Source: Gordius sp. MW1 (Eukaryota > Nematomorpha > Gordioida > Gordea > Gordiidae). From it: a stretch of 64,000 nt of DNA. How positions within the stretch are numbered: the first letter of the stretch is position 1; each line of letters starts with the position of its first letter. Made by a program: the position numbers and the translations under genes. The notes beneath the pieces are model-generated. The model was not told the origin of the DNA and did no database searches. It saw only the letters and a program-made list of their open reading frames with translations. This document shows positions 1 through 54,229 of the stretch, in pieces. The stretch is from positions 15,518,537 to 15,582,536 of the forward strand of contig OZ038532.1 in the NCBI GenBank assembly GCA_964036665.1. Direction: 5' to 3'.

Positions 1-77
1 TATTATCCTCGATTGACTTCCGAAAAGAGGTTTTAAGCTGCGAGATCTATCATTTTGACAAAAGACGACGTTTTATT

Positions 78-104
78 GTTGCGATTAGTTTGTTGTATCG
101 CAAC
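78..104 (+). other. Perfect 8-bp inverted repeat (hairpin) in each unit; first copy shown
   Basis: GTTGCGAT at 78-85 and ATCGCAAC at 97-104 are exact reverse complements, separated by an 11-nt loop at 86-96. The element is kept in most units of both arms. Units with the 10-bp deletion (5220, 13125, 19974, 23247, 54838) keep TGCGAT but lose the bases just before it. Units with GCAGCG instead of GCAACG (4125, 5831, 13736, 20575) carry a mismatch. A stem of this size could extrude as a cruciform or act as a protein-binding dyad; that is inference. It is the best-conserved dyad in the unit, and the strand switch at 22377 falls within it. Confidence 0.8.
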
Positions 105-138
105 GTGTGTGCTTAATTTTTCAAAAATGCACTATGCG

Positions 139-146
139 ATCATGAT
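139..146. other. 8-bp palindrome ATCATGAT in each unit; first copy shown
   Basis: ATCATGAT is its own reverse complement and contains the BspHI site TCATGA. It is retained in nearly all units of both arms and in all three classes, although the flanks differ between classes (TTTTAAAG or TTTCAAAG follow). Exceptions include GACCATGATT at 826 and 2892 and GATCATTATT at 19013. It may be a small dyad target for a satellite-binding protein, but nothing in the window tests that. Confidence 0.6.
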
Positions 147-245
147 TTTAAAGTAATAGTTTTCTGATTCTGATAAATTTTTACTTGGGATCATAGAAAC
201 CACGTCTGAAAACGACAACTTTCATCGGATGCATACGGTTGAAAG

Positions 246-288
246 AAAAATATGTGAAAAATTTTGAGGTAAAAATATTTATTTTTTT
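246..288. other. Cluster of spaced A/T tracts (possible bent DNA); first copy shown
   Basis: Four A/T runs lie at 246-250, 257-265, 271-280 and 282-288, with centres about 12-13 bp apart, close to a helical turn. Phased A-tracts are known to cause intrinsic curvature, and many satellites show it. The cluster is kept in all classes; only the length of the final T run (6-8) and single bases vary. Curvature was not calculated. Confidence 0.45.
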
Positions 289-316
289 CGATTCTATGTG
301 AAAGAGCATGAAAAAA

Positions 317-326
317 TATATAAAAG
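317..326 (+). promoter_or_regulatory. TATA-box-like motif in each unit; first copy shown
   Basis: TATATAAAAG fits the eukaryotic TATA consensus TATAWAAR on the unit's forward strand and is followed at once by GTAAGCCAATTTGAG, which contains a CCAAT pentamer. It recurs about every 345 bp in both arms, so on the - strand right of 22378. It is altered in some units: TGTATAAAAG at about 7180 and 15090 and their right-arm relatives (24711, 28148, 58671, 60390, 63481), TATATGTTTT on the + strand at about 32965, 37430, 41220 and 45690, and it is deleted at 17146 and near 23017. In a 71% A+T repeat such a motif can arise by chance; satellite transcription from it is inference only. Confidence 0.35.
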
Positions 327-345
327 TAAGCCAATTTGAGAATCC

Positions 346-690
346 TATTATCCTCGATTGACTTCCGAAAAGAGGTTTTAAGCTGCGAGAACTATCATTT
401 TGACAAAAGACAACGTTTTATTGTTGCGATTAGTTTGTTGTATCGCAACGTGAGTGCTTAATTTTTCAAAAATGCACTATGCGATCATGATTTTAAAGTA
501 ATAGTTTTCTGATTCTGATAAATTTTTACTTTTTATCATCAAAACCACGTCTGAAAACGACAACTTTCATCGGAAGAATACGGTTCAAAGAAAAATATGT
601 AAAAAATTTTGAGGTAAAAATATTTATTTTTTTCAATTCTATGTGATAGAGCATGAAAAAATATATAAAAGTAAGCCAATTTGAGAATCC
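346..690 (+). repeat. Representative satellite unit (345 bp, mostly class T1)
   Basis: Used here as a reference unit: 345 bp, 100 G+C (29%), 12 CpG. Classes are told apart at linked positions. T1 has GTGAGTGCTTAA, TCAAAAATGCAC, TTTTAAAG, TTTCTGATTC, CTTTTTATCATCG, GGATGCATACGGTTGAAAG and TTCGATTC. T2 has GTGATGCTTAA, TGAAAATGGCTC, TTTCAAAG, TTTCAGATTC, CTTGGGATCATAG, GGATGAATACGGTTCAAAG, often GTGGGAAATTTT, and TTCAATTC. T3 has GTGTTTAATT and AATAACATTTCTCTGATTC, as at 6520 and 6865. This copy is T1 with local variants (CATCAAAACC, CGGAAGAATACGG, GATAGAGC) shared with the units at 1377 and 2412. The T1 string ATGCAT is an NsiI site that T2 lacks. Confidence 0.9.
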
Positions 691-1376
691 TATTATCCTC
701 GATTGACTTCCGAAAAGAGGTTTTAAGCTGCGAGAACTATTATTTTGACAAAAGACAACGTTTTATTGTTGCGATTAGTTTGTTGTATCGCAACGTGATG
801 CTTAATTTTTGAAAATGGCTCTATGCGACCATGATTTCAAAGTAATAGTTTTCAAATTCTGATAAATTTTTACTTGGGATTATAGAAACCACGTCTGAAA
901 ACGACAACTCTCATCGGATGAATACGGTTCAAAGAAAAATATGTGAAAATTTTGACGTAAAAATATTTATTTTTTCGATTCTATGTGAAAGAGCATGAAA
1001 AAATATATAAAAGTAAGCCAATTTGAGAATCCTATTATCCTCGATTGACTTCCGAAAAGAGGTTTTAAGCTGTGAGAACTATCATTTTGACAAAAGACAA
1101 CGTTTTATTGTTGCGATTAGTTTGTTGTATCGCAACGTGATGCTTAATTTTTGAAAATTGCTCTATGCGATCATGATTTCAAAGTAGTAGTTTTCAGATT
1201 CTGATAAATTTTTACTTGGGATCATAGAAACCACGTCTGAAAACGACAACTCTCATCGGATGAATACGGTTCAAAGAAAAATATGTGGGAAATTTTGAGG
1301 TAAAAATATTTATTTTTTTCAATTCTATGTGAAAGAGCATGAAAAAATATATAAAAGTAAGCCAATTTGAGAATCC
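346..1376 (+). repeat. Three-unit block, copy 1 (repeats at 2412)
   Basis: Units at 346, 691 and 1033. The 346 unit has CATCAAAACC, CGGAAGAATACGG and GATAGAGC; the 691 unit has GCGACCATG and TTTCAAATTC with a 342-bp length. The same three units, in the same order and with the same private variants, recur 2066 bp (six units) downstream. The units between them at 1377 and 1722-2066 share some of these variants, so the 6-unit period is only partly preserved. Confidence 0.85.
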
Positions 1377-2411
1377 TATTATCCTCGATTGACTTCCGAA
1401 AAGGGGTTTTAAGCTGCGAGAACTATCATTTTGACAAAAGACAACGTTTTATTGTTGCGATTAGTTTGTTGTATCGCAACGTGAGTGCTTAATTTTTCAA
1501 AAATGCACTATGCGATCATGATTTTAAAGTAATAGTTTTCTGATTCTGATAAATTTTTACTTTTTATCATCAAAACCACGTCTGAAAACGACAACTTTCA
1601 TCGGAAGAATACGGTTCAAAGAAAAATATGTAAAAAATTTTGAGGTAAAAATATTTATTTTTTTCAATTCTATGTGATAGAGCATGAAAAAATATATAAA
1701 AGTAAGCCAATTTGAGAATCCTATTATCCTCGATTGACTTCCGAAAAGAGGTTTTAAGCTGCGAGAACTATCATTTTGACAAAAGACAACGTTTTATTGT
1801 TGCGATTAGTTTGTTGTATCGCAACGTGAGTGCTTAATTTTTCAAAAATGCACTATGCGATCATGATTTCAAAGTAGTAGTTTTCAGATTCTGATAAATT
1901 TTTACTTGGGATCATAGAAACCACGTCTGAAAACGACAACTCTCATCGGATGAATACGGTTCAAAGAAAAATATGTGGGAAATTTTGTGGTAAAAATATT
2001 TATTTTTTTCAATTCTATGTGAAAGAGCATGAAAAAATATATAAAAGTAAGCCAATTTGAGAATCCTATTATCCTCGATTGACTTCCGAAAAGGGGTTTT
2101 AAGCTGCGAGAACTATCATTTTGACAAAAGACAACGTTTTATTGTTGCGATTAGTTTGTTGTATCGCAACGTGAGTGCTTAATTTTTCAAAAATGCACTA
2201 TGCGATCATGATTTCAAAGTAGTAGTTTTCAGATTCTGATAAATTTTTACTTGGGATCATAGAAACCACGTCTGAAAACGACAACTTTCATCGGAAGAAT
2301 ACGGTTCAAAGAAAAATATGTAAAAAATTTTGAGGTAAAAATATTTATTTTTTTCAATCCTATGTGAAAGAGCATGAAAAAATATATAAAAGTAAGCCAA
2401 TTTGAGAATCC

Positions 2412-3437
2412 TATTATCCTCGATTGACTTCCGAAAAGAGGTTTTAAGCTGCGAGAACTATCATTTTGACAAAAGACAACGTTTTATTGTTGCGATTAGT
2501 TTGTTGTATCGCAACGTGAGTGCTTAATTTTTCAAAAATGCACTATGCGATCATGATTTTAAAGTAATAGTTTTCTGATTCTGATAAATTTTTACTTTTT
2601 ATCATCAAAACCACGTCTGAAAACGACAACTTTCATCGGAAGAATACGGTTCAAAGAAAAATATGTAAAAAATTTTGAGGTAAAAATATTTATTTTTTTC
2701 AATTCTATGTGATAGAGCATGAAAAAATATATAAAAGTAAGCCAATTTGAGAATCCTATTATCCTCGATTGACTTCCGAAAAGAGGTTTTAAGCTGCGAG
2801 AACTATTATTTTGACAAAAGACAACGTTTTATTGTTGCGATTAGTTTGTTGTATCGCAACGTGATGCTTAATTTTTGAAAATGGCTCTATGCGACCATGA
2901 TTTCAAAGTAATAGTTTTCAAATTCTGATAAATTTTTACTTGGGATTATAGAAACCACGTCTGAAAACGACAACTCTCATCGGATGAATACGGTTCAAAG
3001 AAAAATATGTGAAAATTTTGACGTAAAAATATTTATTTTTTCGATTCTATGTGAAAGAGCATGAAAAAATATATAAAAGTAAGCCAATTTGAGAATCCTA
3101 TTATCCTCGATTGACTTCCGAAAAGAGGTTTTAAGCTGTGAGAACTATCATCAAAAGACAACGTTTTATTGTTGCGATTAGTTTGTTGTATCGCAACGTG
3201 ATGCTTAATTTTTGAAAATGGCTCTATGCGATCATGATTTCAAAGTAGTAGTTTTCAGATTCTGATAAATTTTTACTTGGGATCATAGAAACCACGTCTG
3301 AAAACGACAACTCTCATCGGATGAATACGGTTCAAAGAAAAATATGTGGGAAATTTTGAGGTAAAAATATTTATTTTTTTCAATTCTATGTGAAAGAGCA
3401 TGAAAAAATATATAAAAGTAAGCCAATTTGAGAATCC
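2412..3437 (+). repeat. Three-unit block, copy 2
   Basis: Matches 346-1376 at an offset of 2066 bp, including GCGACCATG at about 2891 and the 342-bp second unit. The third unit (3099-3437) is 339 bp because 5 bp (TTTGA) are missing after ACTATCAT near 3150, a deletion absent from copy 1, so it arose after the duplication. Confidence 0.85.
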
Positions 3438-3779
3438 TATTATCCTCGATTGACTTCCGAAAAGGGGTTTTAAGCTGCGAGAACTATCATTTTGACAAAA
3501 GACAACGTTTTATTGTTGCGATTAGTTTGTTGTATCGCAACGTGATGCTTAATTTTTGAAAATGGCTCTATGCGATCATGATTTCAAAGTAATAGTTTCA
3601 GATTCTGATAAATTTTTACTTGGGATCATAGAAACCACGTATGAAAACGACAACTTTCATCGGATGCATACGGTTGAAAGAAAAATATGTGAAAAATTTT
3701 GAGGTAAAAATATTTATTTTTTCGATTCTATGTGAAAGAGCATGAAAAAATATATAAAAGTAAGCCAATTTGAGAATTC

Positions 3780-4468
3780 TATTATCCTCGATTGACTTCC
3801 GAAAAGAGGTTTTAAGCTGCGAGAACTATCATTTTGACAAAAGACAACGTTTTATTGTTGCGATTAGTTTGTTGTATCGCAACGTGAGTGCTTAATTTTT
3901 CAAAAATGCACTATGCGATCATGATTTTAAAGTAATAGTTTTCTGATTCTGATAAATTTTTACTTTTTATCATCGAAACCACGTCTGAAAACTACAACTT
4001 TCATCGGATGCATACGGTTGAAAGAAAAATATGTGAAAAATTTTGAGGCAAAAATATTTATTTTTTTCGATTCTATGTGAAAGAGCATGAAAAAATATAT
4101 AAAAGTAAGCCAATTTGAGAATCCTATTATCCTCGATTGACTTCCGAAAAGAGGTTTTAAGCTGCGAGAACTATCATTTTGACAAAAGACAACGTTTTAT
4201 TGTTGCGATTAGTTTGTTGTATCGCAGCGTGATGCTTAATTTTTGAAAATGGCTCTATGCGATCATGATTTCAAAGTAATAGTTTGCAGATTCTGATAAA
4301 TTTTTCCTTGGGATCATAGAAACGACGTCTGAAAACGACAACTTTCATCGGATGAATACGTTTCAAAGAAAAATATGTGAAAAATTTTAAGGTAAAAATA
4401 TTTATTTTTTTCAATTCTATGTGAAAGAGCATGAAAAAATATATAAAAGTAAGCCAATTTGAGAATCC
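3780..4468 (+). repeat. Two-unit block with GAATTC boundary and GCAGCG variant
   Basis: The unit at 3780 is joined by GAATTC (an EcoRI site, where most boundaries read GAATCC) and carries CTGAAAACTACAAC. The next unit (4125) has GCAGCGTG, TTTGCAGATTC, TTTTTCCTTGGG and AACGACGTCTG. The same pair recurs at 5486-6174 and 13391-14079, and in altered form at 20240-20919. On the - strand it recurs at 22378-23000, at the inversion junction. It is a useful tracer of descent. Confidence 0.85.
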
Positions 4469-5154
4469 TATTATCCTCGATTGACTTCCGAAAAGAGGTT
4501 TTAAGCTGTGAGAACTATCATTTTGACAAAAGACAACGTTTTATTGTTGCGATTAGTTTGTTGTATCGCAACGTGATGCTTAATTTTTGAAAATGGCTCT
4601 ATGCGATCATGATTTCAAAGTAATAGTTTTCAGATTCTGATAAATTTTTACTTGGGATCATAGAAACCACGTCTAAAAACGACAACTCTCATCGGATGAA
4701 TACGGTTCAAAGAAAAATATGTGGGAAATTTTGAGGTAAAAATATTTATTTTTTTCAATTCTATGTGAAAGAGCATGAAAAAATATATAAAAGTAAGCCA
4801 ATTTGAGAATCCTATTATCCTCGATTGACTTCCGAAAAGGGGTTTTAAGCTGCGAGAACTATCATTTTGACAAAAGACAACGTTTTATTGTTGCGATTAG
4901 TTTGTTGTATCGCAACGTGATGCTTAATTTTTGAAAATGGCTCTATGCGATCATGATTTCAAAGTAATAGTTTTCAGATTCTGATAAATTTTTACTTGGG
5001 ATCATAGAAACCACGTCTGAAAACGACAACTCTCATCGGATGAATACGGTTCAAAGAAATATGTGGGAAATTTTGAGGTAAAAATATTTATTTTTTTCAA
5101 TTCTATGTGAAAGAGCATGAAAAAATATATAAAAGTAAGCCAATTTGAGAATCC

Positions 5155-8100
5155 TATTATCATCGATTGACTTCCGAAAAGAGGTTTTAAGCTGCGAGAA
5201 CTATTTTGACAAAAGACAACTGCGATTAGTTTGTTGTATCGCAACGTGAGTGATTAATTTTTCAAAAATGCACTATGCGATCATGATTTTAAAGTAATAG
5301 TTTTCTGATTCTGATAAATTTTTACTTTTTATCATCGAAACCACGTCTGAAAACGACAACTTTCATCGGATGCATACGGTTGAAAGAAAAATATGTGAAA
5401 AATTTTGAGGTAAAAATATTTATTTTTTCGATTCTATGTGAAAGAGCATGAAAAAATATATAAAAGTAAGCCAATTTGAGAATTCTATTATCCTCGATTG
5501 ACTTCCGAAAAGAGGTTTTAAGCTGCGAGAACTATCATTTTGACAAAAGACAACGTTTTATTGTTGCGATTAGTTTGTTGTATCGCAACGTGAGTGCTTA
5601 ATTTTTCAAAAATGCACTATGCGATCATGATTTTAAAGTAATAGTTTTCTGATTCTGATAAATTTTTACTTTTTATCATCGAAACCACGTCTGAAAACTA
5701 CAACTTTCATCGGATGCATACGGTTGAAAGAAAAATATGTGAAAAATTTTGAGGCAAAAATATTTATTTTTTTCTATTCTATGTGAAAGAGCATGAAAAA
5801 ATATATAAAAGTAAGCCAATTTGAGAATCCTATTATCCTCGATTGACTTCCGAAAAGAGGTTTTAAGCTGCGAGAACTATCATTTTGACAAAAGACAACG
5901 TTTTATTGTTGCGATTAGTTTGTTGTATCGCAGCGTGATGCTTAATTTTTGAAAATGGCTCTATGCGATCATGATTTCAAAGTAATAGTTTGCAGATTCT
6001 GATAAATTTTTCCTTGGGATCATAGAAACGACGTCTGAAAACGACAACTTTCATCGGATGAATACGTTTCAAAGAAAAATATGTGAAAAATTTTAAGGTA
6101 AAAATATTTATTTTTTTCAATTCTATGCGAAAGAGCATGAAAAAATATATAAAAGTAAGCCAATTTGAGAATCCTATTATCCTCGATTGACTTCCGAAAA
6201 GAGGTTTTAAGCTGCGAGAACTATCATTTTGACAAAAGACAACGTTTTATTGTTGCGATTAGTTTGTTGTATCGCAACGTGAGTGCTTAATTTTTCAAAA
6301 ATGCACTATGCGATCATGATTTTAAAGTAATAGTTTTCTGATTCTGATAAATTTTTACTTTTTATCATCGAAACCACGTCTGAAAACGACAACTTTCATC
6401 GGATGAATACGTTTCAAAGAAAAATATGTGAAAAATTTTAAGGTAAAAATATTTATTTTTTTCAATTCTATGTGAAAGAGCATGAAAAAATATATAAAAG
6501 TAAGCCAATTTGAGAATCTTATTATCCTCGATTGACTTCCGAAAAGGGGTTTTAAGCTGCGAGAACTATCATTTTGACAAAAGACAACGTTTTATTGTTG
6601 CGACTAGTTTGTTGTATCGCAACGTGAGTGTTTAATTTTTCAAAAATGCACTATGCGATCATGATTTCAAAATAACATTTCTCTGATTCTGATAAATTTT
6701 TACTTGGGATCATAGAAACCACGTCTGAAAACGACAATTTTCATCGGATGCATACGGTTGAAAGAAAAATATGTGAAAAATTTTGAGGTAAAAATATTTA
6801 TTTTTTTCGATTCTATGTGAAAGAGCATGAAAAAATATATAAAAGTAAGCCAATTTGAGAATCCTATTATCCTCGATTGACTTCCGAAAAGGGGTTTTAA
6901 GCTGCGAGAACTATCATTTTGACAAAAGACAACGTTTTATTGTTGCGATTAGTTTGTTGTATCGCAACGTGAGTGTTTAATTTTTCAAAAATGCACTATG
7001 CGATCATGATTTCAAAATAACATTTCTCTGATTCTGATAAATTTTTACTTGGGATCATAGAAACCACGTCTGAAAACGACAACTTTCATCGGATGAATAC
7101 GGTTCAAAGAAAAATATGTGAAAATTTTTGAGGTAAAAATATTTATTTTTTTCAATTCTATGTGTAAGAGCATGAAAAAATGTATAAAAGTAAGCCAATT
7201 TGAGAATCCTATTATCCTCGATTGACTTCCGAAAAGAGGTTTTAAGCTGCGAGAACTATCATTTTGACAAAAGACAACGTTTTATTGTTGCGATTAGTTT
7301 GTTGTATCGCAACGTGAGTGCTTAATTTTTCAAAAATGCACTATGCGATCATGATTTTAAAGTAAGTTTTCTGATTCTGATAAATTTTTACTTTTTATCA
7401 TCGAAACCACGTCTTAAAACGACAACTTTCATCGGATGCATACGGTTGAAAGAAAAATATGTGAAAAATTTTGAGGTAAAAATATTTATTTTTTCGATTC
7501 TATGTAAAAGAGCATGAAAAAATATATAAAAGTAAGCCAATTTGAGAATTCTATTATCCTCGATTGACTTCCGAAAAGAGGTTTTAAGCTGCGAGAACTA
7601 TCATTTTGACAAAAGACAACGTTTTATTGTTGCGATTAGTTTGTTGTATCGCAACGTGAGTGCTTAATTTTTCAAAAATGCACTATGCGATCATGATTTT
7701 AAAGTAATAGTTTTCTGATTCTGATAAATTTTTACTTTTTATCATCGAAACCACGTCTGAAAACGACAACTTTCATCGGATGCATACGGTTGAAAGAAAA
7801 ATATGTGAAAAATTTTGAGGTAAAAATAGTTATTTTTTTCGATTCTATGTGAAAGAGCATGAAAAAATATATAAAAGTAAGCCAATTTGAGAATCCTATT
7901 ATCATCGATTGACTTCCGAAAAGAGGTTTTAAGCTGCGAGAACTATCATTTTGACAAAAGACAACGTTTTATTGTTGCGATTAGTTTGATGTATCGCAAC
8001 GTGATGCTTAATTTTTGAAAATGGCTCTATGCGATCATGATTTTAAAGTAATAGTTTTCTGATTCTGATAAATTTTTACTTGGGATCATAGAAACCACGT

Positions 8101-11100
8101 CTGAAAACGACAACTTTCATCGGATGCATACGGTTGAAAGAAAAATATGTGAAAAATTTTGAGGTAAAAACATTTATTTTTTTCGATTCTATGTGAAAGA
8201 GCATGAAAAAATATATAAAAGTAAGCCAATTTGAGAATCCTATTATCCTCGATTGACTTCCGAAAAGAGGTTTTAAGCTGCGAGAACTATCATTTTGACA
8301 AAAGACAACGTTTTATTGTTGCGATTAGTTTGTTGTATCGCAACGTGATGCTTAATTTTTGAAAATGGCTCTATGCGATCATGATTTCAAAGTAATAGTT
8401 TCAGATTCTGATAAATTTTTACTTGGGATCATAGAAACCACGTATGAAAACGACAACTTTCATCGGATGCATACGGTTGAAAGAAAAATATGTGAAAAAT
8501 TTTGAGGTAAAAATATTTATTTTTTTCGATTCTAAGTGAAAGAGCATGAAAAAATATATAAAAGTAAGCCAATTTGAGAATCCTATTATCCTCGATTGAC
8601 TTCCGAAAAGAGGTTTTAAGCTGCGAGAACTATCATTTTGACAAAAGACAACGTTTTATTGTTGCGATTAGTTTGTTGTATCGCAACGTGATGCTTAATT
8701 TTTGAAAATGGCTCTATGCGATCATGATTTCAAAGTAATAGTTTCAGATTCTGATAAATTTTTACTTGGGATCATAGAAACCACGTATGAAAACGACAAC
8801 TTTCATCGGATGCATACGGTTGAAAGAAAAATATGTGAAAAATTTTGAGGTAAAAATAGTTATTTTTTTCGATTCTATGTGAAAGAGCATGAAAAAATAT
8901 ATAAAAGTAAGCCAATTTGAGAATCCTATTATCATCGATTGACTTCCGAAAAGAGGTTTTAAGCTGCGAGAACTATCATTTTGACAAAAGACAACGTTTT
9001 ATTGTTGCGATTAGTTTGTTGTATCGCAACGTGAGTGCTTAATTTTTCAAAAATGCACTATGCGATCATGATTTTAAAGTAATAGTTTTCTGATTCTGAT
9101 AAATTTTTACTTTTTATCATCGAAACCACGTCTGAAAACGACAACTTTCATCGGATGCATATGGTTGAAAGAAAAATATGTGAAAAATTTTGAGGTAAAA
9201 ATAGTTATTTTTTTCGATTCTATGTGAAAGAGCATGAAAAAATATATAAAAGTAAGCCAATTTGAGAATCCTATTATCCTCGATTGACTTCCGAAAAGAG
9301 GTTTTAAGCTGCGAGAACTATCATTTTGACAAAAGACAACGTTTTATTGTTGCGATTAGTTTGTTGTATCGCAACGTGATGCTTAATTTTTGAAAATGGC
9401 TCTATGCGATCATGATTTCAAAGTAATAGTTTCAGATTCTGATAAATTTTTACTTGGGATCATAGAAACCACGTATGAAAACGACAACTTTCATCGGATG
9501 CATACGGTTGAAAGAAAAATATGTGAAAAATTTTGAGGTAAAAATATTTATTTTTTTCGATTCTAAGTGAAAGAGCATGAAAAAATATATAAAAGTAAGC
9601 CAATTTGAGAATCCTATTATCCTCGATTGACTTCCGAAAAGAGGTTTTAAGCTGCGAGAACTATCATTTTGACAAAAGACAACGTTTTATTGTTGCGATT
9701 AGTTTGTTGTATCGCAACGTGAGTGCTTAATTTTTCAAAAATGCACTATGCGATCATGATTTTAAAGTAATAGTTTTCTGATTCTGATAAATTTTTTACT
9801 TGGGATCATAAAAACCACGTCTGAAAACGACAACTTTCATCGGATGAATACGGTTCAAAGAAAAATATGTGAAAAATTTTAAGGTAAAAATATTTATTTT
9901 TTTCAATTCTATGTGAAAGAGCATGAAAAAATATATAAAAGTAAGCCAATTTGAGAATCCTATTATCCTCGATTGACTTCCGAAAAGAGGTTTTAACCTG
10001 CGAGAACTATCATTTTTACAAAAGACAACGTTTTATTGTTGCGATTAGTTTGTTGTATCGCAACGTGAGTGCTTAATTTTTCAAAAATGCACTATGCGAT
10101 CATGATTTCAAAGTAATAGTTTGCAGATTCTGATAAATTTTTACCTGGGATCATAGAAACCACGTCTGAAAACGACAACTTTCATCGGATGAATACGGTT
10201 GAAAGAAAAATATGTGAAAAATTTTGAGGTAAAAATATTTATTTTTTTCGATTCTATGTTAAAGAGCATGAAAAAATATATAAAAGTAAGCCAATTTGAG
10301 AATCCTATTATCCTCGATTGACTTCCGAAAAGAGGTTTTAAGCTGCGAGAACTATCATTTTGACAAAAGACAACGTTTTATTGTTGCGATTAGTTTGTTG
10401 TATCGCAACGTGAGTGCTTAATTTTTCAAAAATGCACTATGCGATCATGATTTTAAAGTAATAGTTTTCTGATTCTGATAAATTTTTACTTTTTATCATC
10501 GAAACCACGTCTGAAAACGACAACTTTCATCGGATGAATACGGTAGAAAAATATGTGAAAAATTTTAAGGTAAAAATATTTATTTTTTTCAATTCTATGT
10601 GAAAGAGCATGAAAAAATATATAAAAGTAAGCCAATTTGAGAATCTTATTATCCTCGACTGACTTCCGAAAAGAGGTTTTAAGCTGCGAGAACTATCATT
10701 TTGACAAAAGACAACGTTTTATTGTTGCGATTAGTTTGTTGTATCGCAACGTGAGTGCTTAATTTTTCAAAAATGCACTATGCGATCATGATTTCAAAGT
10801 AATAGTTTGCAGATTCTGATAAATTTTTACTTGGGATCATAGAAACCACGTCTGAAAACGACAACTTTCATCGGATGAATACGGTTCAAAGAAAAATATG
10901 TGAAAAATTTTGAGGTAAAAATATTTATTTTTTTCAATTCTATGTGAAAGAGCATAAAAAAATATATAAAAGTAAGCCAATTTGAGAATCCTATTATCCT
11001 CGATTGACTTCCGAAAAGAGGTTTTAAGCTGCGAGAACTATCATTTTTACAAAAGACAACGTTTTATTGTTGCGATTAGTTTGTTGTATCGCAACGTGAG

Positions 11101-13056
11101 TGCTTAATTTTTCAAAAATGCACTATGCGATCATGATTTCAAAGTAATAGTTTTCAGATTCTGATAAATTTTTACTTGGGATCATAGAAACCACGTCTGA
11201 AAACGACAACTCTCATCGGATGAATACGGTTCAAAGAAAAATATGTGGGAAATTTTGAGGTAAAAATATTTATTTTTTTCAATTCTATGTGAAAGAGCAT
11301 GAAAAAATATATAAAATTAAGCCAATTTGAGAATCCTATTATCATCGATTGACTTCCGAAAAGAGGTTTTAAGCTGCGAGAACTATCATTTTGACAAAAG
11401 ACAACGTTTTATTGTTGCGATTAGTTTGTTGTATCGCAACGTGAATGCTTAATTTTTCAAAAATGCACTATGCGATCATGATTTTAAAGTAGTTTTCTGA
11501 TTCTGATAAATTTTTTACTTGGGATCATAAAAACCACGTCTGAAAACGACAACTTTCATCGGATGAATGAATACGGTTCAAAGAAAAATATGTGAAAAAT
11601 TTTAAGGTAAAAATATTTATTTTTTTCAAATCTATGTGAAAGAGCATGAAAAAATATATAAAAGTAAGCCAATTTGAGAATCCTATTATCCTCGATTGAC
11701 TTCCGAAAAGAGGTTTTAAGCTGCGAGAACTATCATTTTTACAAAAGACAACGTTTTATTGTTGCGATTAGTTTGTTGTATCGCAACGTGAGTGCTTAAT
11801 TTTTCAAAAATGCACTATGCGATCATGATTTCAAAGTAATAGTTTTCAGATTCTGATAAATTTTTACTTGGGATCATAGAAACCACGTCTGTAAACGACA
11901 ACTCTCATCGGATGAATACGGTTCAAAGAAAAATATGTGGGAAATTTTGAGGTAAAAATATTTATTTTTTTCAATTCTATGTGAAAGAGCATGAAAAAAT
12001 ATATAAAAGTAAGCCAATTTGAGAATCCTATTATCATCGATTGACTTCCGAAAAGAGGTTTTAAGCTGCGAGAACTATCATTTTGACAAAAGACAACGTT
12101 TTATTGTTGCGATTAGTTTGTTGTATCGCAACGTGATGCTTAATTTTTGAAAATGGCTCTATGCGATCATGATTTCAAAGTAATAGTTTTCAGATTCTGA
12201 TAAATTTTTACTTGGGATCATAGAAACCACGTCTGAAAACGACAACTCTCATCGGATGAATACGGTTCAAAGAAAAATATGTGGGAAGTTTTGAGGTAAA
12301 AATATTTATTTTTTTCAATTCTATGTGAAAGAGCATGAAAAAATATATAAAAGTAAGCCAATTTGAGAATCCTATTATCCTCGATTGACTTCCGAAAAGG
12401 GGTTTTAAGCTGCGAGAACTATCATTTTGACAAAAGACAACGTTTTATTGTTGCGATTAGTTTGTTGTATCGCAACGTGAGTGCTTAATTTTTCAAAAAT
12501 GCACTATGCGATCATGATTTTAAAGTAATAGTTTTCTGATTCTGATAAATTTTTACTTTTTATCATCGAAACCACGTCTTAAAACGACAACTTTCATCGG
12601 ATGCATACGGTTGAAAGAAAAATATGTGAAAAATTTTGAGGTAAAAATATTTATTTTTTTCGATTCTATGTGAAAGAGCATGAAAAAATATATAAAAGTA
12701 AGCCAATTTGAGAATCCTATTATCCTCGATTGATTTCCGAAAAGAGGTTTTAAGCTGCGACTATCATTTTGACAAAAGACAACGTTTTATTGTTGCGATT
12801 AGTTTGTTGTATCGCAACGTGATGCTTAATTTTTGAAAATGGCTCTATGCGATCATGATTTCAAAGTAATAGTTTTCAGATTCTGATAAATTTTTACTTG
12901 GGATCATAGAAACCACGTCTGAAAACGACAACTCTCATCGGATGAATACGGTTCAAAGAAATATGTGGGAAATTTTGAGGTAAAAATATTTATTTTTTTC
13001 AATTCTATGTGAAAGAGCATGAAAAAATATATAAAATTAAGCCAATTTGAGAATCC
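5155..13056 (+). repeat. Higher-order repeat, copy U1 (23 units, 7902 bp)
   Basis: Starts at the unit with TATTATCATCG and the 10-bp deletion. Ordered markers: the GAATTC unit (5486), GCAGCG unit (5831), T3 units (6520, 6865), the TGTATAAAAG unit (in 6865-7209), the AAGTAAGTTTTC unit (7210), TTTGATGTATC (7897), TTCTAAGTG units (8241, 9272), ATTTTTTACTTGGG (9615, 11337), and the CAAAGAAATATGTGGG unit (12718). The same order recurs from 13057. Relative to the next copy, U1 has three extra units in the 7.5-9.3 kb stretch, where units alternate between AAAAATAGTT and CACGTATG variants. Confidence 0.85.
5200..5240 (+). other. 10-bp-deletion marker, site 1 (5220/5221)
   Basis: ACAAC is joined directly to TGCGATT, missing GTTTTATTGT. 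The unit also has GTGAGTGATTAA and a 3-bp loss (ACTATTTTGAC). The same deletion occurs at 13125/13126, 19974/19975, 23247/23248 (reverse) and 54838/54839 (reverse, with C to G), each linked to the GATTAATT variant, so the five are related by descent. By joining reading frames it also creates the longest pseudo-ORFs in the window. Confidence 0.9.
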
Positions 13057-16000
13057 TATTATCATCGATTGACTTCCGAAAAGAGGTTTTAAGCTGCGAG
13101 AACTATCATTTTGACAAAAGACAACTGCGATTAGTTTGTTGTATCGCAACGTGAGTGATTAATTTTTCAAAAATGCACTATGCGATCATGATTTTAAAGT
13201 AATAGTTTTCTGATTCTGATAAATTTTTACTTTTTATCATCGAAACCACGTCTGAAAACGACAACTTTCATCGGATGCATACGGTTGAAAGAAAAATATG
13301 TGAAAAATTTTGAGGTAAAAATATTTATTTTTTCGATTCTATGTGAAAGAGCATGAAAAAATATATAAAAGTAAGCCAATTTGAGAATTCTATTATCCTC
13401 GATTGACTTCCGAAAAGAGGTTTTAAGCTGCGAGAACTATCATTTTGACAAAAGACAACGTTTTATTGTTGCGATTAGTTTGTCGTATCGCAACGTGAGT
13501 GCTTAATTTTTCAAAAATGCACTATGCGATCATGATTTTAAAGTAATAGTTTTCTGATTCTGATAAATTTTTACTTTTTATCATCGAAACCACGTCTGAA
13601 AACTACAACTTTCATCGGATGCATACGGTTGAAAGAAAAATATGTGAAAAATTTTGAGGCAAAAATATTTATTTTTTTCGATTCTATGTGAAAGAGCATG
13701 AAAAAATATATAAAAGTAAGCCAATTTGAGAATCCTATTATCCTCGATTGACTTCCGAAAAGAGGTTTTAAGCTGCGAGAACTATCATTTTGACAAAAGA
13801 CAACGTTTTATTGTTGCGATTAGTTTGTTGTATCGCAGCGTGATGCTTAATTTTTGAAAATGGCTCTATGCGATCATGATTTCAAAGTAATAGTTTGCAG
13901 ATTCTGATAAATTTTTCCTTGGGATCATAGAAACGACGTCTGAAAACGACAACTTTCATCGGATGAATACGTTTCAAAGAAAAATATGTGAAAAATTTTA
14001 AGGTAAAAATATTTATTTTTTTCAATTCTATGTGAAAGAGCATGAAAAAATATATAAAAGTAAGCCAATTTGAGAATCCTATTATCCTCGATTGACTTCC
14101 GAAAAGAGGTTTTAAGCTGCGAGAACTATCATTTTGACAAAAGACAACGTTTTATTGTTGCGATTAGTTTGTTGTATCGCAACGTGAGTGCTTAATTTTT
14201 CAAAAATGCACTATGCGATCATGATTTTAAAGTAATAGTTTTCTGATTCTGATAAATTTTTACTTTTTATCATCGAAACCACGTCTGAAAACGACAACTT
14301 TCATCGGATGAATACGGTTCAAAGAAAAATATGTGAAAAATATTAAGGTAAAAATATTTATTTTTTTCAATTCTATGTGAAAGAGCATGAAAAAATATAT
14401 AAAAGTAAGCCAATTTGAGAATCCTATTATCCTCGATTGACTTCCGAAAAGGGGTTTTAAGCTGCGAGAACTATCATTTTGACAAAAGACAACGTTTTAT
14501 TGTTGCGATTAGTTTGTTGTATCGCAACGTGAGTGTTTAATTTTTCAAAAATGCACTATGCGATCATGATTTCAAAATAACATTTCTCTGATTCTGATAA
14601 ATTTTTACTTGGGATCATAGAAACCACGTCTGAAAACGACAACTTTCATCGGATGCATACGGTTGAAAGAAAAATATGTGAAAAATTTTGAGGTAAAAAT
14701 ATTTATTTTTTTCGATTCTATGTGAAAGAGCATGAAAAAATATATAAAAGTAAGCCAATTTGAGAATCCTATTATCCTCGATTGACTTCCGAAAAGGGGT
14801 TTTAAGCTGCGAGAACTATCATTTTGACAAAAGACAACGTTTTATTGTTGCGATTAGTTTGTTGTATCGCAACGTGAGTGTTTAATTTTTCAAAAATGCA
14901 CTATGCGATCATGATTTCAAAATAACATTTCTCTGATTCTGATAAATTTTTACTTGGGATCATAGAAACCACGTCTGAAAACGACAACTTTCATCGGATG
15001 AATACGGTTCAAAGAAAAATATGTGAAAATTTTTGAGGTAAAAATATTTATTTTTTTCAATTCTATGTGTAAGAGCATGAAAAAATGTATAAAAGTAAGC
15101 CAATTTGAGAATCCTATTATCCTCGATTGACTTCCGAAAAGAGGTTTTAAGCTGCGAGAACTATCATTTTGACAAAAGACAACGTTTTATTGTTGCGATT
15201 AGTTTGTTGTATCGCAACGTGAGTGCTTAATTTTTCAAAAATGCACTATGCGATCATGATTTTAAAGTAAGTTTTCTGATTCTGATAAATTTTTACTTTT
15301 TATCATCGAAACCACGTCTTAAAACGACAACTTTCATCGGATGCATACGGTTGAAAGAAAAATATGTGAAAAATTTTGAGGTAAAAATATTTATTTTTTC
15401 GATTCTATGTAAAAGAGCATGAAAAAATATATAAAAGTAAGCCAATTTGAGAATCCTATTATCATCGATTGACTTCCGAAAAGAGGTTTTAAGCTGCGAG
15501 AACTATCATTTTGACAAAAGACAACGTTTTATTGTTGCGATTAGTTTGATGTATCGCAACGTGATGCTTAATTTTTGAAAATGGCTCTATGCGATCATGA
15601 TTTTAAAGTAATAGTTTTCTGATTCTGATAAATTTTTACTTGGGATCATAGAAACCACGTCTGAAAACGACAACTTTCATCGGATGCATACGGTTGAAAG
15701 AAAAATATGTGAAAAATTTTGAGGTAAAAACATTTATTTTTTTCGATTCTATGTGAAAGAGCATGAAAAAATATATAAAAGTAAGCCAATTTGAGAATCC
15801 TATTATCCTCGATTGACTTCCGAAAAGAGGTTTTAAGCTGCGAGAACTATCATTTTGACAAAAGACAACGTTTTATTGTTGCGATTAGTTTGTTGTATCG
15901 CAACGTGAGTGCTTAATTTTTCAAAAATGCACTATGCGATCATGATTTTAAAGTAATAGTTTTCTGATTCTGATAAATTTTTACTTTTTATCATCGAAAC

Positions 16001-19000
16001 CACGTCTGAAAACGACAACTTTCATCGGATGCATACGGTTGAAAGAAAAATATGTGAAAAATTTTGAGGTAAAAATAGTTATTTTTTTCGATTCTATGTG
16101 AAAGAGCATGAAAAAATATATAAAAGTAAGCCAATTTGAGAATCCTATTATCCTCGATTGACTTCCGAAAAGAGGTTTTAAGCTGCGAGAACTATCATTT
16201 TGACAAAAGACAACGTTTTATTGTTGCGATTAGTTTGTTGTATCGCAACGTGATGCTTAATTTTTGAAAATGGCTCTATGCGATCATGATTTCAAAGTAA
16301 TAGTTTCAGATTCTGATAAATTTTTACTTGGGATCATAGAAACCACGTATGAAAACGACAACTTTCATCGGATGCATACGGTTGAAAGAAAAATATGTGA
16401 AAAATTTTGAGGTAAAAATATTTATTTTTTTCGATTCTAAGTGAAAGAGCATGAAAAAATATATAAAAGTAAGCCAATTTGAGAATCCTATTATCCTCGA
16501 TTGACTTCCGAAAAGAGGTTTTAAGCTGCGAGAACTATCATTTTGACAAAAGACAACGTTTTATTGTTGCGATTAGTTTGTTGTATCGCAACGTGAGTGC
16601 TTAATTTTTCAAAAATGCACTATGCGATCATGATTTTAAAGTAATAGTTTTCTGATTCTGATAAATTTTTTACTTGGGATCATAAAAACCACGTCTGAAA
16701 ACGACAACTTTCATCGGATGAATACGGTTCAAAGAAAAATATGTGAAAAATTTTAAGGTAAAAATATTTATTTTTTTCAATTCTATGTGAAAGAGCATGA
16801 AAAAATATATAAAAGTAAGCCAATTTGAGAATCCTATTATCCTCGATTGACTTCCGAAAAGAGGTTTTAAGCTGCGAGAACTATCATTTTTACAAAAGAC
16901 AACGTTTTATTGTTGCGATTAGTTTGTTGTATCGCAACGTGAGTGCTTAATTTTTCAAAAATGCACTATGCGATCATGATTTCAAAGTAATAGTTTGCAG
17001 ATTCTGATAAATTTTTACTTGGGATCATAGAAACCACGTCTGAAAACGACAACTTTCATCGGATGAATACGGTTGAAAGAAAAATATGTGAAAAATTTTG
17101 AGGTAAAAATATTTATTTTTTTCGATTCTATGTGAAAGAGCATAAAAAATCCTATTATCCTCGATTGACTTCCGAAAAGAGGTTTTAAGCTGCGAGAACT
17201 ATCATTTTGACAAAAGACAACGTTTTATTGTTGCGATTAGTTTGTTGTATCGCAACGTGAGTGCTTAATTTTTCAAAAATGCACTATGCGATCATGATTT
17301 TAAAGTAATAGTTTTCTGATTCTGATAAATTTTTACTTTTTATCATCGAAACCACGTCTGAAAACGACAACTTTCATCGGATGAATACGGTTCAAAGAAA
17401 AATATGTGAAAAATTTTAAGGTAAAAATATTTATTTTTTTCAATTCTATGTGAAAGAGCATGAAAATATATATAAAAGTAAGCCAATTTGAGAATCTTAT
17501 TATCCTCGACTGACTTCCGAAAAGAGGTTTTAAGCTGCGAGAACTATCATTTTGACAAAAGACAACGTTTTATTGTTGCGATTAGTTTGTTGTATCGCAA
17601 CGTGAGTGCTTAATTTTTCAAAAATGCACTATGCGATCATGATTTCAAAGTAATAGTTTGCAGAATCTGATAAATTTTTACTTGGGATCATAGAAACCAC
17701 GTCTGAAAACGACAACTTTCATCGGATGAATACGGTTCAAAGAAAAATATGTGAAAAATTTTGAGGTAAAAATATTTATTTTTTTCAATTCTATGTGAAA
17801 GAGCATAAAAAAATATATAAAAGTAAGCCAATTTGAGAATCCTATTATCCTCGATTGACTTCCGAAAAGAGGTTTTAAGCTGCGAGAACTATCATTTTTA
17901 CAAAAGACAACGTTTTATTGTTGCGATTAGTTTGTTGTATCGCAACGTGAGTGCTTAATTTTTCAAAAATGCACTATGCGATCATGATTTCAAAGTAATA
18001 GTTTTCAGATTCTGATACATTTTTACTTGGGATCATAGAAACCACGTCTGAAAACGACAACTCTCATCGGATGAATACGGTTCAAAGAAAAATATGTGGG
18101 AAATTTTGAGGTAAAAATATTTATTTTTTTCAATTCTATGTGAAAGAGCATGAAAAAATATATAAAAGTAAGCCAATTTGAGAATCCTATTATCATCGAT
18201 TGACTTCCGAAAAGAGGTTTTAAGCTGCGAGAACTATCATTTTGACAAAAGACAACGTTTTATTGTTGCGATTAGTTTGTTGTATCGCAACGTGAATGCT
18301 TAATTTTTCAAAAATGCACTATGCGATCATGATTTTAAAGTAGTTTTCTGATTCTGATAAATTTTTTACTTGGGATCATAAAAACCACGTCTGAACGACA
18401 ACTTTCATCGGATGAATGAATACGGTTCAAAGAAAAATATGTGAAAAATTTTAAGGTAAAAATATTTATTTTTTTCAAATCTATGTGAAAGAGCATGAAA
18501 AAATATATAAAAGTAAGCCAATTTGAGAATCCTATTATCCTCGATTGACTTCCGAAAAGAGGTTTTAAGCTGCGAGAACTATCATTTTTACAAAAGACAA
18601 CGTTTTATTGTTGCGATTAGTTTGTTGTATCGCAACGTGAGTGCTTAATTTTTCAAAAATGCACTATGCGATCATGATTTCAAAGTAATAGTTTTCAGAT
18701 TCTGATAAATTTTTACTTGGGATCATAGAAACCACGTCTGAAAACGACAACTCTCATCGGATGAATACGGTTCAAAGAAAAATATGTGGGAAATTTTGAG
18801 GTAAAAATATTTATTTTTTTCAATTCTATGTGAAAGAGCATGAAAAAATATATAAAAGTAAGCCAATTTGAGAATCCTATTATCATCGATTGACTTCCGA
18901 AAAGAGGTTTTAAGCTGCGAGAACTATCATTTTGACAAAAGACAACGTTTTATTGTTGCGATTAGTTTGTTGTATCGCAACGTGATGCTTAATTTTTGAA

Positions 19001-19905
19001 AATGGCTCTATGCGATCATTATTTCAAAGTAATAGTTTTCAGATTCTGATAAATTTTTACTTGGGATCATAGAAACCACGTCTGAAAACGACAACTCTCA
19101 TCGGATGAATACGGTTAAAAGAAAAATATGTGGGAAATTTTGAGGTAAAAATATTTATTTTTTTCAATTCTATGTGAAAGAGCATGAAAAAATATATAAA
19201 AGTAAGCCAATTTGAGAATCCTATTATCCTCGATTGACTTCCGAAAAGGGGTTTTAAGCTGCGAGAACTATCATTTTGACAAAAGACAACGTTTTATTGT
19301 TGCGATTAGTTTGTTGTATCGCAACGTGAGTGCTTAATTTTTCAAAAATGCACTATGCGATCATGATTTTAAAGTAATAGTTTTCTGATTCTGATAAATT
19401 TTTACTTTTTATCATCGAAACCACGTCTTAAAACGACAACTTTCATCGGATGCATACGGTTGAAAGAAAAATATGTGAAAAATTTTGAGGTAAAAATATT
19501 TATTTTTTTCGATTCTATGTGAAAGAGCATGAAAAAATATATAAAAGTAAGCCAATTTGAGAATCCTATTATCCTCGATTGATTTCCGAAAAGAGGTTTT
19601 AAGCTGCGACTATCATTTTGACAAAAGACAACGTTTTATTGTTGCGATTAGTTTGTTGTATCGCAACGTGATGCTTAATTTTTGAAAATGGCTCTATGCG
19701 ATCATGATTTCAAAGTAATAGTTTTCAGATTCTGATAAATTTTTACTTGGGATCATAGAAACCACGTCTGAAAACGACAACTCTCATCGGATGAATACGG
19801 TTCAAAGAAATATGTGGGAAATTTTGAGGTAAAAATATTTATTTTTTTCAATTCTATGTGAAAGAGCATGAAAAAATATATAAAAGTAAGCCAATTTGAG
19901 AATCC
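13057..19905 (+). repeat. Higher-order repeat, copy U2 (20 units, 6849 bp)
   Basis: Matches U1 in marker order with few substitutions. The offset to U1 is 7902-7905 bp up to the unit at 15115, then shifts to 6874 from 16146 and to 6847-6851 after the 27-bp deletion at 17146. The shift shows that three units present in U1 are absent here (or were added in U1), most simply by unequal exchange between near-identical neighbours. The exact exchange point within 15.4-16.2 kb cannot be fixed by eye because several units there are almost the same. Confidence 0.85.
17140..17156 (+). other. 27-bp deletion in one unit (318 bp long)
   Basis: GAGCATAAAAAATCCTATT at this point lacks 27 bp relative to its counterpart at 10296 (unit 9961), removing the TATA-like and CCAAT motifs. 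The join lies in an A run, so the end points cannot be fixed exactly. The deletion is unique to U2 and therefore younger than the U1-U2 duplication. Confidence 0.85.
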
Positions 19906-20919
19906 TATTATCATCGATTGACTTCCGAAAAGAGGTTTTAAGCTGCGAGAACTATCATTTTGACAAAAGACAACTGCGATTAGTTTGTTGTATCGCAACG
20001 TGAGTGATTAATTTTTCAAAAATGCACTATGCGATCATGATTTTAAAGCAATAGTTTTCTGGTTCTGATAAATTTTTACTTTTTATCATCGAAACCACGT
20101 CTGAAAACGACAACTTTCATCGGATGCATACGGTTGAAAGAAAAATATGTGAAAAATTTTGAGGTAAAAATATTTATTTTTTCGATTCTATGTGAAAGAG
20201 CATGAAAAAATATATAAAAGTAAGCCAATTTGAGAATTCTATTATCCTCGATTGACTTCCGAAAAGAGGTTTTAAGCTGCGAGAACTATCATTTTGACAA
20301 AAGACAACGTTTTATTGTTGCGATTAGTTTGTTGTATCGCAACGTGAGTGCTTAATTTTTCAAAAATGCACTATGCGATCATGATTTTAAAGTAATAGTT
20401 TTCTGATTCTGATAAATTTTTACTTTTTATCATCGAAACCACGTCTGAAAACGACAACTTTCATCGGATAAAGAAAAATATGTGAAAAATTTTGAGGTAA
20501 AAATATTTATTTTTTTTCGATTCTATGTGAAAGAGCATGAAAAAATATATAAAAGTAAGCCAATTTGAGAATCCTATTATCCTCGATTGACTTCCGAAAA
20601 GAGGTTTTAAGCTGCGAGAACTATCATTTTGACAAAAGACAACGTTTTATTGTTGCGATTAGTTTGTTGTATCGCAGCGTGATGCTTAATTTTTGAAAAT
20701 GGCTCTATGCGATCATGATTTCAAAGTAATAGTTTGCAGATTCTGATAAATTTTTACTTGGGATCATAGAAACCACGTCTGAAAACGACAACTCTCATCG
20801 GATGAATACGGTTCAAAGAAAAATATGTGAAAAATTTTGAGGTAAAAATATTTATTTTTTTCAATTCTATATGAAAGAGCATGAAAAAAATATATAAAAG
20901 TAAGCCAATTTGAGAATCC
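19906..20919 (+). repeat. Higher-order repeat, truncated copy U3 (first three units)
   Basis: Repeats the first three units of U1 and U2: 10-bp-deletion unit (19906), GAATTC unit (20240) and GCAGCG unit (20575). The GAATTC unit has lost 11 bp at about 20470 (CGGAT joined to AAAGAAAA). After 20920 the order no longer follows U1/U2: the units at 20920 and 21264 resemble those at 19222 and 19567 instead (CGTCTTAA, then TTGATTTCCG and CAAAGAAATATGTGGG). Confidence 0.75.
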
Positions 20920-22377
20920 TATTATCCTCGATTGACTTCCGAAAAGAGGTTTTAAGCTGCGAGAACTATCATTTTGACAAAAGACAACGTTTTATTGTTG
21001 CGATCAGTTTGTTGTATCGCAACGTGAGTGCTTAATTTTTCAAAAATGCACTATGCGATCATGATTTAAAAGTAATAGTTTTCTGATTCTGATAAATTTT
21101 TACTTTTTATCATCGAAACCACGTCTTAATACGAGAACTTTCATCGGATGCATACGGTTGAAAGAAAAATATGTGAAAAATTTTGAGGTAAAAATATTTA
21201 TTTTTTCGATTCTATGTGAAAGAGCATGAAAAAATATATAAAAGTAAGAGAATTTGAGAATCCTATTATCCTCGATTGATTTCCGAAAAGAGGTTTTAAG
21301 CTGCGAGAACTATCATTTTGACAAAAGACAACGTTTTATTGTTGCGATTAGTTTGTTGTATCGCAACGTGATGCTTAATTTTTGAAAATGGCTCTATGTG
21401 ATCATGATTTCAAAGTAATAGTTTTCAGATTCTGATAAATTTTTACTTGGGATCATAGAAACCACGTCTGAAAACGACAACTCTCATCGGATGAATACGG
21501 TTCAAAGAAATATGTGGGAAATTTTGAGGTAAAAATATTTATTTTTTTCAATTCTATGTGAAAGAGCATGAAAAAATATATAAAAGTAAGCCAATTTGAG
21601 AATCCTTTTATCCTCGATTGACTTCCGAAAAGGGGTTTTAAGCTGCGAGAACTATCATTTTGACAAAAGACAACGTTTTATTGTTGCGATTAGTTTGTTG
21701 TATCGCAACGTGATGCTTAATTTTTGAAAATGGCTCTATGCGATCATGATTTCAAAGTAATAGTTTTCAGATTCTGATAAATTTTTACTTTGGATCATAG
21801 AAACCACGTCTGAAAACGACAACTCTCATCGGATCTATACGGTTCAAAGAAAAATATGTAGGAAATTTTGAGGTAAAAATATTTATTTTTTTCAATTCTA
21901 TGTGAAAGAGCATGAAAAAATATATAAAAGTAAGCCAATTTGAGAATCCTATTATCCTCGATTGACTTCCGAAAAAGGGTTTTAAGCTGCGAGAACTATC
22001 ATTTTGACAAAAGACAACGTTTTATTGTTGCGATTAGTTTGTTGTATCGCAACGTGAGTGCTTAATTTTTCAAAAATGCACTATGCGATCATGATTTTAA
22101 AGTAATAGTTTTCTGATTCTGATAAATTTTTACTTTTTATGATCGAAACCACGTCTTAAAACGACAACTTTCATCGGATGCATACGGTTGAAAGAAAAAT
22201 ATGTGAAAAATTTTGAGGTAAAAATATTTATTTTTTTCGATTCTATGTGAAAGAGCATGAAAAAATATATAAAAGTAAGCCAATTTGAGAATCCTATTAT
22301 CCTCGATTGACTTCCGAAAAGAGGTTTTAAGCTGCGAGAACTATCATTTTGACTAAAGACAACGTTTTATTGTTGCG
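20920..22377 (+). repeat. Left-arm units next to the strand switch, rich in private changes
   Basis: Units at 20920, 21264, 21606, 21950 and the partial at 22295. They carry many changes not seen in other copies: GCGATCAGTTTG, TTTAAAAGTAAT, CTTAATACGAGAAC, GTAAGAGAATTT, CTATGTGATC, AATCCTTTTATCC, CGGATCTATAC, ATGTAGGAAA, GAAAAAGGGT, TATGATCG and GACTAAAGAC. The series ends at 22377, 83 bp into the last unit. Such divergence is usual where homogenising exchange is weak, for example at an array edge. Confidence 0.75.
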
Positions 22378-22386
22378 TAAATATTT
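22370..22386. other. Strand-switch (inversion) junction of the satellite
   Basis: Forward sequence runs to TGTTGCG at 22371-22377. From TAAATATTTTTACC at 22378 the sequence is the reverse complement of the unit. The expected forward continuation would be ATTAGTTTG; the expected reverse neighbour to the left of TAAATATT would be a run of A. I see no inserted bases and no obvious microhomology of 2 bp or more. The left partial keeps 83 bp of its unit and the right partial keeps 280 bp. The two arms are not a mirror palindrome around this point, so it is not a simple fold-back of one template. Confidence 0.95.
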
Positions 22387-23316
22387 TTACCTTAAAATTT
22401 TTCACATATTTTTCTTTGAACCGTATTCATCCGATGAAAGTTGTCGTTTTCAGACGTCGTTTCTATGATCCCAAGTAAAAATTTATCAGAATCTGCAAAC
22501 TATTACTTTGAAATCATGATCGCATAGAGCCATTTTCAAAAATTAAGCATCACGCTGCGATACAACAAACTAATCGCAACAATAAAACGTTGTCTTTTGT
22601 CAAAATGATAGTTCTCGCAGCTTAAAACCTCTTTTCGGAAGTCAATCGAGGATAATAGGATTCTCAAATTGGCTTACTTTTATATATTTTTTCATGTTCT
22701 TTCACATAGAATCGAAAAAAATAAATATTTTTACCTCAAAATTTTTCACATATTTTTCTTTCAACCGTATGCATCCGATGAATGTTGTTGTTTTCAGACG
22801 TGGTTTCGATGATAAAAAGTAAAAATTTATCAGAATCAGAAAACTATTACTTCAAAATCGTGATCGCATAGTGCATTTTTGAAAAATTAAGCACTCACGT
22901 TGTCATACAACAAACTCATCGCAACAATAAAACGTTGTCTTTTGTCAAAATGATAGTTTTCGCAGCTTAAAACCTCTTTTCGGGTCAATCGAGGATAATA
23001 GAATTCTCAAATTGGCTTCATGCTCTTTCACATAGAATCGAAAAAATAAATATTTTTACCTCAAAATTTTGACATATTTTTCTTTCAACCGTATGCATCC
23101 GATGAAAGTTGTCGTTTTCAGACGTGGTTTCGATGATAAAAAGTAAAATTTTATCAGAATCAGAAAACTATTACTTTAAAATCATGGTCGCATAGTGCAT
23201 TTTTGAAAAATTAATCACTCACGTTGCGATACAACAAACTAATCGCAGTTGTCTTTTGTCAAAATGATAGTTCTCGCAGCTTAAAACCTCTTTTCGGAAG
23301 TCAATCGAGGATAATA
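22378..23316 (-). repeat. Inverted counterpart of the first three units of the left-arm higher-order repeat
   Basis: Read on the - strand from 23316 to 22378 the order is: the 10-bp-deletion unit with GTGATTAATT, the GAATTC-joined T1 unit, and the GCAGCG unit with CAGACGACGTCTG-type flank and AAGGTAAAA. This is the order at 5155-6174, 13057-14079 and 19906-20919. The copy is heavily mutated: TTCATGTTCT, GATGAATGTTGTTG, CAAAATCGTG, TTGTCATACAAC, ACTCATCGC, a 2-3 base loss in TTTTCGGGTCAAT, a loss of about 17 bp in GGCTTCATGCTC, TTTTGACAT and CATGGTCGC. The relation proves that both arms derive from one array. Confidence 0.85.
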
Positions 23317-53895: not shown

Positions 53896-54229
53896 GTGGC
53901 TTACTTTTATATATTTTTTCATGCTCTTTCACATAGAATCAAAAAAAATAACTATTTTTACCTCAAAATTTTTCTCATATTTTTCTTTCAACTGTATGCA
54001 TCCGATGAAAGTTGTCGTTTTCAGACGTGGTTTCGATGATAAAAAGTAAAAATTTATCAGAATCAGAAAACTATTATTTTAAAATCATGATCGCATAGTG
54101 CATTTTTGAAAAATTAAGCACTCACGTTGCGATACAACAAACTAATCGCAACAATAAAACGTTGTCTTTTGTCAAAATGATAGTTCTCGCAGCTTAAAAC
54201 CTCTTTTCGGAAGTCAATCGAGGATAATA
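53590..54229 (-). repeat. Fused pair of units, copy 1 (640 bp, 49-bp deletion)
   Basis: CTCGCAG is joined directly to TGGCTTAC at about 53896, removing 49 bp from CTTAAAACC to CTCAAAT, which includes the unit boundary GAGGATAATA. Two units become a single 640-bp repeat: the left part is T2, and the right part is T1 with GAATCAAAAAAAATAAC and TTTTTCTCATAT. The same join recurs at 57281. Confidence 0.9.

Follow-up and report, generated by a model that had tools for sequence, protein, structure and literature searches.

An abrupt strand switch in a Gordius satellite array probably marks one end of a simple 167-kb inversion

A 345-bp satellite array in the nematomorph Gordius sp. MW1 switches strand from one base to the next, and this strand switch is probably the left end of one simple inversion. 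A segment of 167,229 bp would have been turned round, in a balanced fashion, inside a pre-existing unidirectional array, a reading that draws on comparisons of assembled sequence and to which we assign a probability of about 0.86. The window, by which we mean the whole 64,000-bp stretch of DNA that was analysed, spans positions 15,518,537-15,582,536 of contig OZ038532.1 (C6 below) in an assembly of 211.8 Mb and 12 contigs (GCA_964036665.1).

Results

According to TRF, the whole window is a single long array of the 345-bp satellite. We called the orientation of its units with a 50-base anchor, which has 185 matches across the window: every match to the left of position 22377 is on the + strand (66/66, the final one ending at 22,353) and every match to the right of it is on the - strand (119/119, the earliest starting at 22,599). 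The strand switch that the initial annotation had placed at 22377 is therefore exact, falling between 22377 and 22378 (C6:15,540,913/914). TRF also puts the terminus of the + array at 22377, and GC skew flips in the 2-kb bin that contains this site, hereafter J1. The + sequence breaks off in the middle of a unit at 22,377 (..TTGTTGCG), at phase 81 of the monomer, and a reversed unit begins at the very next base (TAAATATTTTTACC..), at phase 279. Direct reading of the sequence reveals neither spacer nor insertion at J1, and there are no N bases in the 64-kb window, in agreement with the earlier description of a clean join without spacer or transposon. A 32-mer across J1 is found at 1 place in the 211.8-Mb assembly when up to 3 mismatches are allowed, two common unit types can be recognized by eye on both sides of the junction, and a search of window positions 20-25 kb against Rfam gave 0 matches at the gathering threshold.

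By both TRF and the anchors, positions 1..22377 form the + array on the left flank. From 22378 to 64000 the anchors are all in - orientation, and this stretch is the left part of the inverted block, which continues beyond the window to C6:15,708,142. Within it, at window positions ~53900-57600, two spacings between adjacent anchors measure 640 and 641 bp against the usual ~690, and TRF reports a 295-bp period at 56978-57578; these probably reflect a shared deletion variant of the unit.

To the left of the window there is no switch as far as C6:15,318,537 (200 kb). When C6 is divided into 53 bins of 5 kb from that position to the end of the window, 43 bins contain only + and 8 only - satellite words, 1 bin is mixed (that of J1) and 1 has no satellite words. 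On the other side, among the matches listed, the satellite on C6 is - up to 15.707 Mb and + again from 15.720 Mb, and the 18 kb read there, outside the window, contain a second abrupt switch, J2, from - to + at C6:15,708,142/143. Its junction sequence, too, is found at 1 place genome-wide at up to 3 mismatches. J1 and J2 are thus opposite switches (+ to - and - to +), both abrupt and both without N, and the length of the reversed block between them is the 167,229 bp given above. Direct reading of the block covered its first 41.6 kb and its last 34.1 kb, on either side of a middle 91.5 kb (15,582,537-15,674,000); between J1 and J2 all satellite matches are -, among the matches listed (two lists, in which 40 out of 1679 candidates and 18 out of 3551 were scored).

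If the block has been inverted, its ends should fit its flanks once it is turned back. We call the left flank L and the right flank R; X denotes the end of the block at J2, taken in + sense, and Y denotes its other end, at J1. Phases are counted on a 344-base monomer consensus. L ends at phase 81 and X starts at phase 86; Y ends at phase 279 and R starts at phase 284. It follows that L continues in X and that Y continues in R, with about 4 bases lost at either break (3 at one and 5 at the other if a single ambiguous T is assigned differently), ~8 in total, and with 0-1 bp of microhomology at the junctions. By our own arithmetic, the chance that both junctions fit within 5 bases, if they were independent, is ~(11/344)^2, or ~0.001.

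The clearest trace of the earlier arrangement comes from joining Y to R in silico. Over 5 kb, the restored sequence matches C6:15,442,581-15,447,580 (+) at 98.7%, with further loci nearby at 97.6% and 97.2% and the next locus at 95.8%. In 2-kb segments the diagonal runs unbroken across the join; for the segment that spans it, three loci match, with identities of 99.40, 99.35 and 99.25%, and a top match of higher identity is seen in 2 of 54 segments. Within 400 bp on either side, four loci reach 99.25, 99.13, 98.88 and 98.76%, and each of these intact loci carries 4 extra T at the join relative to the restored sequence; the best of them aligns over 804 columns at 99.25% identity with a gap of 4 T at the join. 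The control drew 150 of the 560 other in-phase R sites, without leaving out those inside the three tandem copies described below, and joined Y to each; none of the 150 reached the true score of 3846 (mean 3474.5, s.d. 87.8, highest 3810). Judged by these alignments, the pre-inversion junction of Y and R is present in intact copies ~100 kb to the left. These copies diverge from it by about 0.6-0.75% at the join, and if they were copied from Y|R, or Y|R from them, the inversion would be younger than the copying.

In C6:15,434,377-15,447,580 a multi-unit block occurs three times in tandem, at spacings of 4.8 and 3.4 kb, and forms local higher-order repeats. The variant GGCTTCATGCTC, located by variant search at window positions 23014..23025 (-) beside a short anchor spacing (314 versus 345), recurs within 264 kb only at C6:15,436,227, 15,441,015 and 15,444,429, and those three sites fall in the three tandem copies that match restored Y|R.

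For the other restored junction, L|X, a genome search with 450 bp on either side gives 99% matches near C6:15.791-15.801 Mb, each with 904 bases against 900, and the alignments to the loci near C6:15.79-15.80 Mb contain 4 mismatches and 4 gap positions; at this length, in a comparison against seven loci around the best relatives of L, which had been picked for likeness to L, 1 of 128 controls reached the true score. At ±1000 bp no long-range paralogue of L|X was distinguished, as the true score was equalled or exceeded by 107 of 150 controls and, against the seven loci, by 42 of 128. At ±1300 bp, 26 of the 128 controls did as well against the seven loci. Of the two ancestral junctions, one, Y|R, is demonstrated; L|X is supported by phase and by similarity over a short local span.

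We also considered local similarity as a test of adjacency and dropped it, as its outcome was mixed and partly against the inversion. Among 13 chunks near J1, L resembles X more closely in 6 and Y more closely in 7, and R has X rather than Y as its closer partner in 8 of 13. When the flanks are made equally large, X is closer to R than to L in 10/13, which counts against inversion, and Y is closer to R than to L in 10/13, which counts for it.

The initial annotation had also stated that the right side begins with the inverted counterparts of a three-unit block on the left, and had argued from this that one array, not two, was involved. The match itself is real: the first 900 bp to the right of J1 align to the block at 19945..20854 (+) at 94.7% identity. 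It is neither special nor the closest counterpart, ranking seventh in a comparison that covered 264 kb with the query itself excluded. The best loci are C6:15,440,762 (99.1%), 15,444,176 (99.1%) and 15,435,974 (98.8%), and loci at 13,096 and 5,203 within the window also outscore it; over the first 3 kb to the right of J1, the three-unit locus comes sixth at 96.0%, the best loci being at 98.2% and 97.8%. The shared variants GCAGCGTGATG and TTTGCAGATTC are found at 11 and 26 places, respectively, along the 222 kb of + array on the left flank. The argument from the three-unit block fails because such variants are scattered in the array and closer counterparts lie ~100 kb away. Its conclusion, an origin within one array, is nevertheless supported, by a reciprocal junction, J2, that lies 167 kb further right, by the complementary phases and by the intact copies of Y|R. 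The variants that had been put forward as unique sites for PCR turn out to be repeated within the 264 kb, where AATCCTTTTATCC has 17 + and 2 - copies and GGCTTCATGCTC has 4, both strands counted.

The array belongs to an abundant satellite. Allowing up to 1 mismatch, a 41-mer of the unit is found at 54,762 places (22,657 forward, 32,105 reverse), which by our own arithmetic amounts to ~19 Mb of satellite if each place represents one 345-bp unit. Its wider layout was drawn from sparse probes on three contigs (C1, C3 and C6) of the 12. On C6 the satellite is present at probes from 13.0 to 16.25 Mb and absent at 12.5 and 16.5 Mb; it is - at 13.0-14.6 Mb, a second, core satellite occupies 14.7-15.05 Mb, and from 15.1 Mb the orientation is + except in the inverted block. 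On C1 the places at 11.24-11.25, 11.65-11.68 and 12.00-12.01 Mb are all + among the matches listed, and probes are + at 12.1-12.4, - at 12.5-12.8 and + at 13.3-14.5 Mb, with core satellite at 13.0 and 13.2 Mb and neither satellite at 12.9 and 13.1 Mb. Probes on C3 are - at 13.0-13.25, + at 13.5-14.25, core satellite at 14.4-14.75, + at 15.0 and - at 15.25-15.5 Mb, and matches at 16.05 and 16.66 Mb are - among those listed. On C1, C3 and C6 alike the array reverses two or more times, so an orientation switch as such is ordinary in this genome.

Several other features of these regions were observed. The core satellite, a tandem repeat of ~350 bp that is related to the 345-bp unit but diverged from it, lies inside 345-bp arrays on C6, C1 and C3. 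The outer arrays that flank it point opposite ways on C6 and C1, and the pattern on C3 differs. The core satellite itself switches orientation on C6 (at 14,700,001 versus later probes) and on C1 (at 13.0 versus 13.2 Mb). Within the array on C6, the stretches at 15,337,603-15,345,955, 15,322,385-15,324,616 and 15,482,368-15,484,098 are poor in common satellite words and are perhaps insertions or diverged units; the piece that begins with the first of them (C6:15,337,603-15,345,955) contains 0 stop-to-stop frames of at least 150 amino acids. Exact six-fold TTAGG or TCAGG telomere repeats were found at 0 places in the 211.8 Mb, which would mean either that other telomere repeats are used or that the chromosome ends are unassembled.

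Discussion

The features of the two junctions suggest how the inversion may have come about. Two double-strand breaks ~167 kb apart in one unidirectional array would have been followed by the turning round of the fragment between them and by its rejoining. The joining was probably non-homologous end joining, given the microhomology of 0-1 bp, the small losses and the lack of any insertion. Recombination between inverted copies was considered and set aside: it is unneeded, and the breaks at different phases, 81 and 279, argue against it, because it requires inverted copies and would result in matching phases. No function is needed to account for the inversion.

Other explanations deserve weighing against a simple inversion. 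Assembly is at its hardest in a tandem repeat like this one, many of whose copies are at least 95% identical, and a contig, or a path of the assembly graph, could have been placed here in the wrong orientation; we consider such an artefact unlikely, as the stretches counted contain no N, both ends switch abruptly within a monomer, and a random misjoin would not yield phase-complementary ends with small losses together with one restored intact sequence. It is less probable still that J1 and J2 belong to a recurrent module comparable to the macro-dyads of Tribolium, with conserved, amplified switch sites and a presumed structural role. There is a real likeness, in that Tribolium, too, has orientation-changing satellite arrays in megabase-scale regions, and the several switches on each of the three probed contigs indicate that inverted arrays are general here. 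However, the Tribolium report (PMC13081366) describes conserved inversion sites in thousands of copies, near-identical in T. madens, and dyads that span a few to several tens of kilobases, whereas J1 and J2 are each found at 1 place genome-wide (up to 3 mismatches), the block between them is 167 kb long, and the inverted arms at J1 are ~200 bp apart by phase (279 minus 81). Neither J1 nor J2 is a switch site conserved at many loci.

That the nearest relatives of Y lie ~100 kb to the left might be taken to favour an inverted insertion or transposition, in which a 167-kb piece arrived from elsewhere. Such an event should have left L and R in phase, but the phase is 81 where L ends and 284 where R begins; furthermore, relatives of Y run straight into relatives of R, which indicates that Y and R were once neighbours, and we find this origin hardly credible. 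We give almost no weight to a fold-back (hairpin) or an inverted duplication of the sequence adjacent to J1. Although the orientation does flip without a spacer, the sequence to the right of J1 does not mirror that to the left, the 900 bp that follow J1 matching at 94.7% nearby and at 98.8-99.1% ~100 kb away, and a second, reciprocal junction, J2, exists.

The interval from J1 to J2 is best classed as a simple inversion in a satellite array, a kind already known. In an orangutan centromere, a 3.2-Mb inversion lies within a satellite array (PMC11062924). A block of the array has reversed orientation in both cases; here the satellite, with its 345-bp unit, is by description a different one, and the block is smaller, at 167 kb. 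In the Gordius array, in addition, monomer phase allows both breakpoints to be paired, and intact copies of one ancestral junction exist. Among the titles listed in a literature search on a 345- or 344-bp satellite none fits this repeat, and among those listed on paired breakpoints of satellite inversions none is on that subject, although such work may exist elsewhere.

More broadly, the layouts that sparse probes show on C6 and C1, C3 being different, could be read as centromeric regions built to a plan, with an inner, diverged core set within the megabase-scale 345-bp array, oppositely pointing outer arrays on its two sides, and inversions making or scrambling that polarity. We regard this as doubtful, if worth stating; if true, the orientation of an array could be heritable and possibly selected.

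Although the event is of a known kind, here both of its breakpoints can be matched almost to the base and the ~8 lost bases counted. The test by phase is simple and can be applied wherever a long-read assembly contains a satellite array. The inversion provides a concrete case in which orientation changes in satellites would stem from breakage and end joining and not from recombination between inverted copies, and, once in place, the inverted block should hinder in-register exchange with its flanks.
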